Assembly: GCA_001782235.1 (NCBI GenBank) | Contig: MFOC01000001.1 | Location: 1-38,309, forward strand | Source: Candidatus Levybacteria bacterium RIFCSPHIGHO2_02_FULL_40_18 | Lineage (GTDB): Bacteria > Patescibacteriota > Microgenomatia > Levybacterales > GWA1-39-11 | Direction of reading: 5' to 3' | DNA: 38,309 nt | Part shown: positions 6,226-35,460 of the stretch, one piece after another | Layout of the letters: each line of letters starts with the position of its first letter | Position numbering within the stretch: the first letter of the stretch is position 1 | The notes under the pieces: model-generated | Database searches by the model: none | Told to the model about the DNA's origin: nothing | Seen by the model: the letters and a program-made list of their open reading frames with translations, nothing else | Program-made: the position numbers and the translations under genes

Positions 6226-6232
6226 CCCTTAA

Positions 6233-6267
6233 TTGTCAGTTGTCAGTAGTTAGTTGTCAATTGTTAT
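6233..6267. repeat. Heptamer array upstream of the GT-C gene
   Basis: Five 7-nt units follow T-(T/A)-GT-(C/T)-A: TTGTCAG twice, TAGTTAG, TTGTCAA and TTGTTAT. On the - strand the units create a TTGACA-N17-GACAAT promoter that ends 6 nt before the ATG at 6225. The array fills the whole gap between glmS and the GT-C gene and touches the glmS stop codon. Confidence 0.75.
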
Positions 6268-9261: not shown

Positions 9262-9313
9262 TTAGTATAAAGAACCGGTGTCAAGCTAATCCACCCTCCA
9301 GGTGTACACAACT

Positions 9314-9341
9314 GGATACTCAATACTCGATACTGTATACT
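9314..9341 (+). repeat. Four-unit heptamer array carrying a -10 box
   Basis: Four 7-nt units share ATACT at positions 3-7: GGATACT, CAATACT, CGATACT and GTATACT. The last unit contains TATACT (9336-9341), a good -10 hexamer exactly 6 nt before the ATG at 9348. The array appears to supply the promoter for the metallopeptidase gene. No mirrored arm is seen. Confidence 0.65.
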
Positions 9342-9347
9342 CGTAGG

Positions 9348-9716
9348 ATGAAGTGGCAGAGGGATGGTAAAATTCAGAAAGAACTTCGCAAATTAGTTCG
9401 TCATTTGTCTTTCGACCATGTAAGGCCTACTCAAGTACACGCATTCAGAACTTATGGGTCAAAGGCTCGGGCATATGCAAGGATTTGGGCTTTCCCAAAA
9501 ATCTTCCAAGAGGTCCTCAATGTTCAGCCGGCATACGTAATCGAGGTTTTGTCCGAAAAGTTCGATAAGCTCTCGGAAGATAATAAGACAAAAGTCTTAA
9601 TTCATGAACTATTGCACATACCTAAAAATTTTTCAGGAAGCCTTCTGCCACACAGAGGACGAGGTAGAAGATTGGATAAAGAAGTCGAACGGTTATATAA
9701 AATGTACAAAACGTGA
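9348..9716 (+). CDS. Small zinc metallopeptidase-like protein (HELLH)
   Basis: The 122-residue protein contains HELLHIPKNF (His86, Glu87, His90), the HExxH zinc-peptidase motif on a helix. A further His at about 102 (SLLPHRGRGRRLD) is a plausible third ligand. This layout matches the short 'putative phage metallopeptidase' family (PF18894 as I recall it), found in archaea and candidate-phylum bacteria. There is no signal peptide, so it should act in the cytoplasm. Target unknown. The N-terminal 60 residues are basic (KIQKELRKLVRHL). It is flanked on both sides by short-unit tandem arrays. Confidence 0.65.
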   Translation: MKWQRDGKIQKELRKLVRHLSFDHVRPTQVHAFRTYGSKARAYARIWAFPKIFQEVLNVQPAYVIEVLSEKFDKLSEDNKTKVLIHELLHIPKNFSGSLLPHRGRGRRLDKEVERLYKMYKT

Positions 9717-9717
9717 T

Positions 9718-9796
9718 AGTTTATAAGGTTTATAAAGTTTTTAAAGTTCATAAAATTACCTTATGAACCTTACAAACCTTAAGAACTTTACGAACT
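9718..9796. repeat. Mirrored array of 4+4 nonamers
   Basis: The left arm (9718-9753) is four 9-nt units and the right arm (9761-9796) is four units in inverted orientation, separated by a 7-nt spacer. Read in the same direction, all eight units fit RGTTYNTAA. GTT and TAA are invariant in 8 of 8, position 1 is A or G, position 5 is T or C, and position 6 varies freely. The two 36-nt arms match at 28 of 36 positions. The element fills the gap between the metallopeptidase stop and the holA ATG, ending 5 nt before it. Confidence 0.9.
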
Positions 9797-9801
9797 GACG
9801 T

Positions 9802-10485
9802 ATGATTTACATAATTTCAGGCGAGGATGTTGTTTCGTCAAGAAATAAGCTAAGCGAACTACTTTCGGGAAAAGAAAATATTGTTCGTTTGGACGGAAAA
9901 AAGGCTACGATTGCGGAGCTTGACGAGGCACTTTTAGGAGGAAGTTTGTTTTCTGATTCAAAGGTGGTTGTTTTGGAGTACTTCTCGAAACTAAAGCCGG
10001 AGGTAAGGGTTTGGGAGATTCTGAACCAAGTTCAGAATGACAAAAGTACGGACGTGATTCTTTGGGATGATATTGACCTTAGCAAAAAGAAATTTCCAAA
10101 AAAAGTTCAGATTTTTAACTTTCTATTCCCAAAGTTCTACTACGCATTTTTGGATAGTTTTGAACCAAATTCGAAAAAGACCTTAGAACTACTTACGGAA
10201 GTTCTAAAAACTTTTGAACCGGAGCAGGTTTTGTATGGACTTGTTCGGAGAGTTCGGCAACTTTTGATTATAAAGTCTAATAACTATTCGGAGTTTTCGG
10301 AATTTAAGCGAGTGCAATCATGGCAAATTTCAAAACTAAAAAAACAGGCTAATCTTTGGTCTGAAAATCAATTAAAAAAGGCATTTCTTGAACTTGCCAA
10401 ACTTGATGAAAAAATGAAAACCAGCAATCTTCCCTTGCCGTTAGCATCTCACCTTGACATTCTACTCCTCTCCGAATTAAACTAA
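9802..10485 (+). CDS. holA: DNA polymerase III delta subunit
   Basis: HolA is the clamp-loader subunit that opens the sliding clamp. The 227-residue product begins with the usual MIYIISGED segment and has the family's N-terminal alpha/beta fold with acidic patches (VILWDDIDL). Its C-terminal helical domain includes LYGLVRRVRQLLIIKS and LAKLDEKMKTSNLPLPLASHLDILLL, which is typical of HolA ends. It is short compared with the about 340 aa of E. coli. It lacks a Walker motif, as expected. A perfect palindrome (10018-10038) lies in frame and encodes ILNQVQN (residues 73-79), probably an insertion. The mirrored nonamer array lies immediately upstream. It is followed after 11 nt by the phosphomannomutase gene, probably in one operon. 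Confidence 0.85.
   Translation: MIYIISGEDVVSSRNKLSELLSGKENIVRLDGKKATIAELDEALLGGSLFSDSKVVVLEYFSKLKPEVRVWEILNQVQNDKSTDVILWDDIDLSKKKFPKKVQIFNFLFPKFYYAFLDSFEPNSKKTLELLTEVLKTFEPEQVLYGLVRRVRQLLIIKSNNYSEFSEFKRVQSWQISKLKKQANLWSENQLKKAFLELAKLDEKMKTSNLPLPLASHLDILLLSELN
10018..10038. repeat. Perfect palindrome in frame within holA
   Basis: ATTCTGAAC-CAA-GTTCAGAAT is a 9-bp perfect inverted repeat of exactly 21 nt, encoding seven residues, ILNQVQN. I recognise the peptide ILNQVQxD as one that recurs in unrelated proteins of environmental genomes, as expected for a mobile mini-palindrome that can be tolerated in coding sequence. Confidence 0.7.
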
Positions 10486-19395: not shown

Positions 19396-19436
19396 AGGTT
19401 AGTATTAAGTATGAAAAACACTAGAACTATATTATT

Positions 19437-19466
19437 AATTTACACGAAAATAAGTCGAAATGTCAA
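19437..19466 (-). promoter_or_regulatory. Promoter of lexA
   Basis: On the - strand a perfect TTGACA (19466-19461), an 18-nt spacer and TAAATT (19442-19437) would give a leader of about 35 nt before the ATG at 19395. Confidence 0.5.
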
Positions 19467-19495
19467 CTAGCGTAAAGGATATCAATCGCTATCAT

Positions 19496-19625
19496 CTGTT
19501 ATCAGTTTTCAGTTGTCGGTTGTCAGAATCAAGTTTACCAGTAGTCTGTTCGCCTGTTAAAAAACCGATTGACCGAAGACTGAAAGACTGGAATCCGAAA
19601 ACAGAAAACCGAGAACCGATAACCG
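19496..19625. repeat. Mirrored heptamer array between lexA and uvrB
   Basis: Two 63-nt arms (19496-19558 and 19563-19625) are inverted relative to each other around an AAAA spacer and match at about 42 of 63 positions. The outer four units of each arm are 7-mers of form C-x-GTT-y-T. C, GTT and T are invariant in 8 of 8, x is A, G or T, and y is any base. Inner units drift but keep CAGT/CGGT words in register. The right arm ends 6 nt before the extended -10 of uvrB. Confidence 0.88.
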
Positions 19626-19630
19626 CACTG

Positions 19631-19639
19631 TGGTACAAT
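19631..19639 (+). promoter_or_regulatory. Extended -10 promoter of uvrB
   Basis: TGGTACAAT ends 10 nt before the ATG at 19650, giving a predicted leader of 3-4 nt with no SD. Confidence 0.65.
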
Positions 19640-19649
19640 TATAGATTCC

Positions 19650-34016: not shown

Positions 34017-35330
34017 CAAATCTTGTATTTCTCTTCTTTGCCAGCGGTCGGCGAGGTAGCCGTTGGGGCGAGTTAGGAGTTTTGGCCCGTCCACTAAATA
34101 GCCGTTTCGGATGGTGTGATGACCAAAGCGATCATTAATTTGGTCTACGAGCTTGGTAATTATTTCTTTTTTGGGACTTTCGAACATTGATGGGGTAGAG
34201 TATTGTTCGTCTATTAAATTTCCCACCCAAACACTAACTTGCCGAACATATTCAAGGTTCCATTTTTTATAAAATCGCAAACATATCTCAAATATTTCTT
34301 TGCCCGAACTTGTATATCGCGGAATTGTTTTTCTTTCGCCTTCTGATCGATTTCCATGTAAAAATAACCCGATCGTTCTTCCTTTCATTTTGAGACGGCG
34401 AAGCTTAATTGCGATTTCTTCACAAAGTTCGTAAATAGTCTTGAGGATTTTGTCTTTATCATATTCATTATGGGGTAGACAGTAGTTTCTTCCCACTGAT
34501 TTTGTCTCGATTTCTTCTGTGTAGAAAACCACCGGCGAATCATCTATGCCCATAGATATTGCCTTAAGATGCTGCGAGGCAACGTTACCGAATTCTTTTT
34601 TCAAGAGATGCATGGGATATTCTTGCAGGTCGCGAAAATTAAATATTCCAAGCAGATTCAGTCTTCTTTTGTATCTTTCGCCAATTCCCATGATATCTGT
34701 CAACCTAACCTGAGATAAGATTTTATTCTTATTCGAATTATCAATTATTGCGAATCCATCAGGTTTATTAAGGTTTGTTGCGAGCTTTGCCAAAAGTTTA
34801 TTGTAAGAAAGTCCCATGGAAACAGTAATAGTTGACCCGATTTCATTTTGTAACTGTCTTTTAAAATCCTGAACAATATTCTGAATGGCTTCGATACGCC
34901 TCCTCTCTCCACCCCTGTCTGCGCTGTCGCTTGCAGGCGGGCTCCCTCGCTTCGCTCGGTCCGCCCCTCGGGGGTGGGTAGCGTGATAGAGATGCAAAAC
35001 CGGCGTCAAATCAATAAACACCTCATCCAGCGAAAATAGCTCGACGATTGGTGAATAGCGATTTGCGATCTGCAATAACTTTTTTGTTATTTCAATATAC
35101 CTTTCAAAATCTGCTTTTACAAACTCTATCTCAGGACAAATCCTTTTTGCCTCCCAAGTAGTATTGGGACTTTTAATGCCTGCGGCTTTTGCTTCGCGTG
35201 AAGCCGCAATAACACAATTTCTACCGTTCTCAGCCGTTATTCCGATTGGCTTCCCCCGAAGATTAGGATTAAAATGTTGCTCGCAGGAAGCAAAGAAAGA
35301 ATCGAAATCAACGTGTAATATACTACGCAT
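34014..35330 (-). CDS. dinB: DNA polymerase IV with an in-frame insertion
   Basis: DinB is a Y-family translesion polymerase, often under LexA control. The 438-residue protein begins ILHVDFDSFFASCEQ (catalytic Asp in the palm) and carries ELFSLDEVFIDLT (catalytic Asp-Glu), VSMGLSYNKLLAKLATNLNKPDG, the HhH thumb (LTDIMGIGERYKRRL) and the little-finger domain. Residues about 118-146 (ATHPRGADRAKRGSPPASDS, then RGGERRR) have no counterpart I know. They are encoded by the GC-rich palindrome at 34909-34977 and interrupt the palm helix after the catalytic strand. The C-terminal tail repeats a motif (NGYLVDGPK, NGYLADRWQ). It is next to tRNA-Lys, whose end overlaps its stop. Confidence 0.93.
   Translation of the reverse strand: MRSILHVDFDSFFASCEQHFNPNLRGKPIGITAENGRNCVIAASREAKAAGIKSPNTTWEAKRICPEIEFVKADFERYIEITKKLLQIANRYSPIVELFSLDEVFIDLTPVLHLYHATHPRGADRAKRGSPPASDSADRGGERRRIEAIQNIVQDFKRQLQNEIGSTITVSMGLSYNKLLAKLATNLNKPDGFAIIDNSNKNKILSQVRLTDIMGIGERYKRRLNLLGIFNFRDLQEYPMHLLKKEFGNVASQHLKAISMGIDDSPVVFYTEEIETKSVGRNYCLPHNEYDKDKILKTIYELCEEIAIKLRRLKMKGRTIGLFLHGNRSEGERKTIPRYTSSGKEIFEICLRFYKKWNLEYVRQVSVWVGNLIDEQYSTPSMFESPKKEIITKLVDQINDRFGHHTIRNGYLVDGPKLLTRPNGYLADRWQRREIQDL
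34909..34977. repeat. 69-nt GC-rich palindromic insertion in dinB
   Basis: An outer stem CCACCCC (34909-34915) pairs with GGGGTGG (34971-34977). Inside are CCTG...CAGG (34914-34937) and GGCGG...CCGCC (34936-34965) stems around a CGCTTCGCTCGG core. The 69 nt equal 23 codons. Its GC content is far above the rest of dinB, and it encodes a Pro/Arg/Ser-rich segment absent from normal DinB proteins. Confidence 0.7.
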
Positions 35331-35333
35331 AAT

Positions 35334-35460
35334 TAGAAAATAGTTAGTAGATAATAGAGAATAGTAATGGATAATGGAAAATAGAAAATAGTTTTTAAAA
35401 TACTAATTTCCAAATCTCTAATTTCCGAACTATTTTCCAATTTCTAATAACCAATTTCCA
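35334..35460. repeat. Mirrored heptamer array upstream of dinB
   Basis: The left arm (about 35334-35391) is eight units, almost all 7-mers beginning TAG or TGG: TAGAAAA, TAGTTAG, TAGATAA, TAGAGAA, then TGGATAA, TGGAAAA. The right arm (about 35401-35460) read on the - strand gives TGGAAAT, TGGTTAT, TAGAAAT, TGGAAAA, TAGTTCG and so on, in register apart from one gap. The array begins 3 nt before the dinB ATG, so any dinB promoter must lie inside it. Confidence 0.85.

Follow-up and report, generated by a model that had tools for sequence, protein, structure and literature searches.

The window analyzed here, the whole 38,309-nucleotide stretch from Candidatus Levybacteria bacterium RIFCSPHIGHO2_02_FULL_40_18, contains a mirrored array of short repeats lodged between two protein genes, immediately ahead of a gene resembling holA, and it raises the question of whether such an element serves the gene that it precedes or has settled there on its own account. 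We consider the second answer probable, and interpret the array as one of a family of small selfish elements of the IVP/IVS type, resembling a MITE and lacking an ORF. The junction is organized as follows.

9348..9716, + strand: upstream ORF, PF18894 putative phage metallopeptidase
9718..9753, + strand: 5' arm, four nonamers (AGTTTATAA GGTTTATAA AGTTTTTAA AGTTCATAA)
9754..9760, no strand: 7-nt spacer or hairpin loop, AATTACC
9761..9796, - strand: 3' arm, four inverted nonamers, reading on the minus strand from 9796 (AGTTCGTAA AGTTCTTAA GGTTTGTAA GGTTCATAA)
9717..9797, + strand: predicted RNA stem of 32 bp, interrupted by five 1x1 mismatches (-22.8 kcal/mol)
9802..10485, + strand: holA-like gene (DNA polymerase III delta subunit), PF21694 DNA_pol3_delta_C, E=9e-8

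The mirror array makes up the whole intergenic gap between the ORF stop (9716) and holA, with the TGA of the upstream ORF ending 1 nt ahead of the array and the last inverted unit lying 5 nt from the holA ATG at 9802; the element is 79 bp long and lacks an ORF. The original prediction, made from the sequence alone, partitioned it into four nonamers, a 7-nt spacer, and four inverted nonamers ending 5 nt before the start codon, and all of these details are confirmed. Its consensus, RGTTYNTAA, matches all eight units exactly, at 9718-9753 (+) and 9761-9796 (-), but the sixth position is better written as D, giving RGTTYDTAA: C occupies it in 0 of 38 in-register units in the Levybacteria genome and in 2 of 563 units in other genomes. 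The fifth position is a pyrimidine in 537 of those 563 units. Both positions lie outside the filter that selected the nonamer units, and across many phyla they vary just as Y and D.

The unit is not confined to this junction. The 995-kb genome has 35 two-unit matches (16 forward and 19 reverse) in about 11 places, compared with none genome-wide for the reversed-pattern control, and chance is therefore excluded for the nonamer pattern. Matches occur in many phyla, including many Bacteroidota, and nonamer arrays are patchy within the phylum, where 9 of 380 genomes carry them; a convergent partner is present for 11 of 18 arrays in eight other genomes of the phylum, and some arrays are one-directional. 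The pattern search that had been proposed thus finds other instances both here and in related genomes, and the unit serves well as a query for a dispersed family. The ORF-less copies in the genome are placed with some precision, starting -12 to +10 nt from the upstream stop in seven of seven cases and ending 4 to 7 nt ahead of the next start in six of seven. We note that two near-identical nonamer mirrors (G000:C2:123700 and C2:124760) lie ∼1 kb apart around one gene, as though one were a copy of the other. Neither a transposition event nor a target-site duplication or an excision product was seen, and the flanks of the copies show no consistent duplication.

Arrays with a period of 7 also abound in the genome, some of them next to non-IVP genes, and the window carries several arrays of the heptamer type. 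Mirrored arrays are present in the gap at 19396-19649 (GTTGTCA-like, then CCGAAAAC-like units), where a different mirrored array occupies the matching junction of the congener G002, and between divergent ORFs at 35329-35453 (AATAG and CTATT units). One-directional arrays are found at 9311-9343 (ATACTCG-like) and 6226-6263 (TTGTCAG-like), and are perhaps decayed or single-arm relatives.

If the element served holA, it might be expected at the orthologous locus. We find no sequence conservation there; position alone recurs, and the holA gaps of the congeners G001 and G002 have mirrored arrays composed of different units, while most members of the order have almost no gap and little or no array. 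Other junctions behave similarly. The ftsW|murG junction has a nonamer mirror in this genome and one of heptamers in G001; the congener G002 and the family members G004 and G006 have no gap there. The thymidine phosphorylase junction has a different mirror in G002. That mirrors of different units recur at shared junctions suggests, in a small sample, that these are favored sites or that arrays replace arrays. The dispersed gene-less copies, together with sites that are empty in relatives, are what is expected of a MITE.

The likely partner protein is suggested by a sibling copy elsewhere in the genome (C2:130334-130764; 431 nt), in which opposed arms of the same nonamer unit as at holA bracket a gene for a 114-aa protein of PF05635 (23S_rRNA_IVP / S23; Pfam E=2e-34). 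Relatives of this protein have solved structures (2gsc, the Xanthomonas campestris IVP XCC0516, and 2rld), each with five chains. The genome has ten IVP genes in all, and most of them stand between mirrored arms built from a 7- or 9-nt unit of their own. Two IVP genes (L036, G000:C3:69823-70131, and L037, G000:C7:353517-353786) have an in-frame stop and are still flanked by arrays; they are apparently pseudogenes.

Inverted arrays of this type are general to IVP genes. Because neighboring genes share arrays, counts of periods in the flanks separate IVP genes from controls poorly, and we instead used an inverted-arm score, in which the left flank is aligned to the reverse complement of the right flank. 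For 36 IVP genes of the order the median score is 18, compared with 10 for 80 neighboring genes (P=3e-10); the direct orientation scores 11, and mismatched partners score 10. A further 29 IVP genes from Bacteroidota, Chloroflexi, Ignavibacteria, Firestonebacteria, and other Patescibacteria have a median of 25, compared with 10 for their neighbors (P=1.6e-12). The arms are also specific to one another, with the true partner ranking within the top 10% for 22 of 36 genes in the order and 24 of 29 in the other genomes; the flanks of these 65 IVP genes, from several phyla, are thus arm-specific inverted arrays of degenerate 7- to 9-mers. Cyanobacterial plasmids show inverted arms at six of eight IVP genes (five strong, and L291 short), the exceptions being L289, with direct arrays, and L287, with none. 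The IVP genes L285 and L289, carried by plasmids of Anabaena sp. 90 and Pseudanabaena galeata, are flanked by cas6 and cas4.

The arrays are linked not only to IVP genes but to particular IVP lineages. Array 5-mers track IVP protein identity (Mantel r 0.26, 0/2000 permutations), and do so when the nonamer clade is left out (r 0.20, 0/2000 permutations). A single clade (99/96 support; 0/500 shuffles) unites the seven IVPs initially identified between nonamer arms; it spans two phyla, Patescibacteria and Bacteroidota, and the best-matching pairs are 55 to 66% identical. An out-of-sample check gave a mixed result. Nine further IVPs were found at 53 to 63% identity, of which eight were readable, and inverted arrays bracket all eight; two have the exact nonamer, three have one-step variants (AGTCYDTAA, AGTTYATCA), and three have heptamers. 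None of the more distant IVPs examined has more than one nonamer unit. The pairing of unit and IVP is not absolute, as a close IVP is missing from four of the nine other genomes with nonamer arrays and is present in two of ten genomes without exact nonamer arrays. Opposed arrays bracketing a PF05635 gene in the same genome, and a unit that tracks an IVP clade with these exceptions, nonetheless place the holA element among the IVP-associated inverted arrays. In L293 and in L251, the nonamer-bracketed IVP of the cultured Butyricimonas synergistica, a core change is common to both arms and the degenerate positions are still varied.

Such a linkage could also arise without mobility, if the IVP were a host nucleic-acid-binding protein, functionally tied to the arrays, whose binding sites are spread by ordinary recombination. 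We think this unlikely, even though it accommodates the linkage of unit to clade, and a core change shared by both arms is expected if a protein constrains the unit. A search of the genome for a reverse transcriptase found none; no mobility enzyme emerged from that search, and movement through a resident reverse transcriptase is rejected. The patchy distribution over phyla, the differences in presence between congeners, and the compact gene-plus-arms unit at gene junctions nevertheless look selfish.

Somewhat less probable again is that the element is a regulatory RNA structure or a protein-binding array controlling holA or its operon. It has a good fold, lies 5 nt from the start codon, and has unit degeneracy that is restricted rather than random, and heptamers near start codons in Beggiatoaceae have been proposed as translational regulators (PMC4679880). 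As RNA, the element is predicted to form 32 base pairs with five 1x1 mismatches at -22.8 kcal/mol (z -5.7), an energy reached by none of 200 shuffles. Of the two structures envisaged at the outset, an RNA stem and a 36-bp cruciform, the first is thus upheld in imperfect form; folded as single-stranded DNA the element is weak (-10.4 kcal/mol, z -2.7), and a DNA cruciform is accordingly weakly supported, a perfect 36-bp one, given the five mismatched positions, not at all. The other copies in the genome fold too, on either strand, and seven elements show no consistent strand preference in folding or in arm polarity (T-rich versus C-rich fifth position). No Rfam family matches the element above the gathering score, with sub-threshold microRNA hairpin matches only, and 20 IVP loci contain no rRNA match, so a known RNA family is also rejected. 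A role specific to holA is, however, at odds with the presence of RGTTYDTAA at unrelated operon junctions (murG, thymidine phosphorylase, and others), and the different units in the holA gap of both congeners rule out a conserved holA regulator. A neutral minisatellite, generated by slippage and inverted duplication, is very improbable: the abundance of period-7 arrays favors it, but decay would strike all positions rather than leaving the fifth and sixth restricted to Y and D in many phyla, the reversed control has no matches, and inverted arms are a feature particular to IVP genes.

We therefore return to a small selfish element as the preferred reading. Full members of the family would be ∼430 bp, with one PF05635/S23 four-helix-bundle gene set between two opposed arrays of degenerate short repeats, and the unit RGTTYDTAA would belong to one IVP subfamily. 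The IVP protein, or its complex with RNA or DNA, presumably recognizes the unit, and copies, if they move, would insert between genes, directly where the upstream reading frame stops. The arms would pair in the transcript, and the hairpin, which may be subject to RNase III processing, would draw the stop of the upstream gene toward the start of the downstream one. We propose that operons tolerate the insert because the paired arms fold the transcript in this manner, much as 23S rRNA accommodates IVS hairpins.

MITEs and REP/BIME elements are small, palindromic, intergenic, gene-less, and dispersed, and depend on a protein encoded elsewhere. The holA element and its copies share this appearance, but have arms of degenerate nonamer arrays in place of a defined terminal repeat, and the AT-rich nonamers also set the holA element apart from a typical REP, a palindrome of 20 to 40 nt served by a RAYT transposase. 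The partner also differs: the IVP is a four-helix bundle that is not known to have enzymatic activity, and it is neither a transposase nor a RAYT. A nearer parallel is the 23S rRNA IVS of Coxiella burnetii, which carries an S23p ORF, is 428 nt long, pairs its complementary ends into a long RNA stem, and is described as selfish (PMC4990558). The protein family is the same (S23p / PF05635), the length is close to the 431 nt of the sibling copy, and complementary ends that form a stem are present in the holA copy. Unlike the IVS, the holA copy is located between protein genes rather than inside a 23S rRNA gene, its ends are arrays of degenerate 7- to 9-mers, and the S23p/IVP ORF is absent from it and present in the sibling.

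Two reported classes of heptamer array are similar in other respects. The GGGAATC or (GGGANTN)n arrays of Xanthomonas and Nostoc are degenerate, intergenic, and nearer to the upstream than to the downstream gene, with 70 to 75 convergent inverted pairs per genome in Xanthomonas (PMC4692102). They share with the holA element short units with fixed and variable positions and convergent pairing, but their unit is 7 nt and G-rich, they are read as G-quadruplex repeats, and no IVP link is reported (PMC4692102). TAACTGA heptamers of Beggiatoaceae, cyanobacteria, and Bacteroidetes are likewise next to start codons and patchy across phyla, and close relatives have shorter, repeat-free intergenic regions (PMC4679880); they differ in being almost all direct rather than mirrored, in their proposed regulatory role, and in having no IVP link (PMC4679880). 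The association of IVP genes with arrays is not reported in the literature searched, and since most subscription papers lay outside that search, our claim of novelty is limited to this coverage.

Both IVP (S23) genes and heptamer arrays between genes occur commonly, and neither has so far been explained. The bracketing of one by the other with matching units provides an orphan protein family with a hypothesis of function and one class of bacterial repeats with an origin. We tentatively suggest, as a possibility that falls short of the case for the holA element itself, that IVP/S23 proteins are specificity factors of widespread, unrecognized minimal selfish elements whose ends are rows of degenerate repeats, that the heptamer arrays of cyanobacteria, Xanthomonas, and Bacteroidota are gene-less derivatives of these, and that a change in the unit core can affect the two arms jointly without loss of variation at the degenerate positions. 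An old proposal holds that IVS elements are mobile and that the ORF is needed for movement (discussed in PMC4990558), and the link between IVPs and arrays makes it directly testable. The IVP query also matches Avd, the DGR accessory protein, in phages, and the same link thus bears on the origin of Avd.
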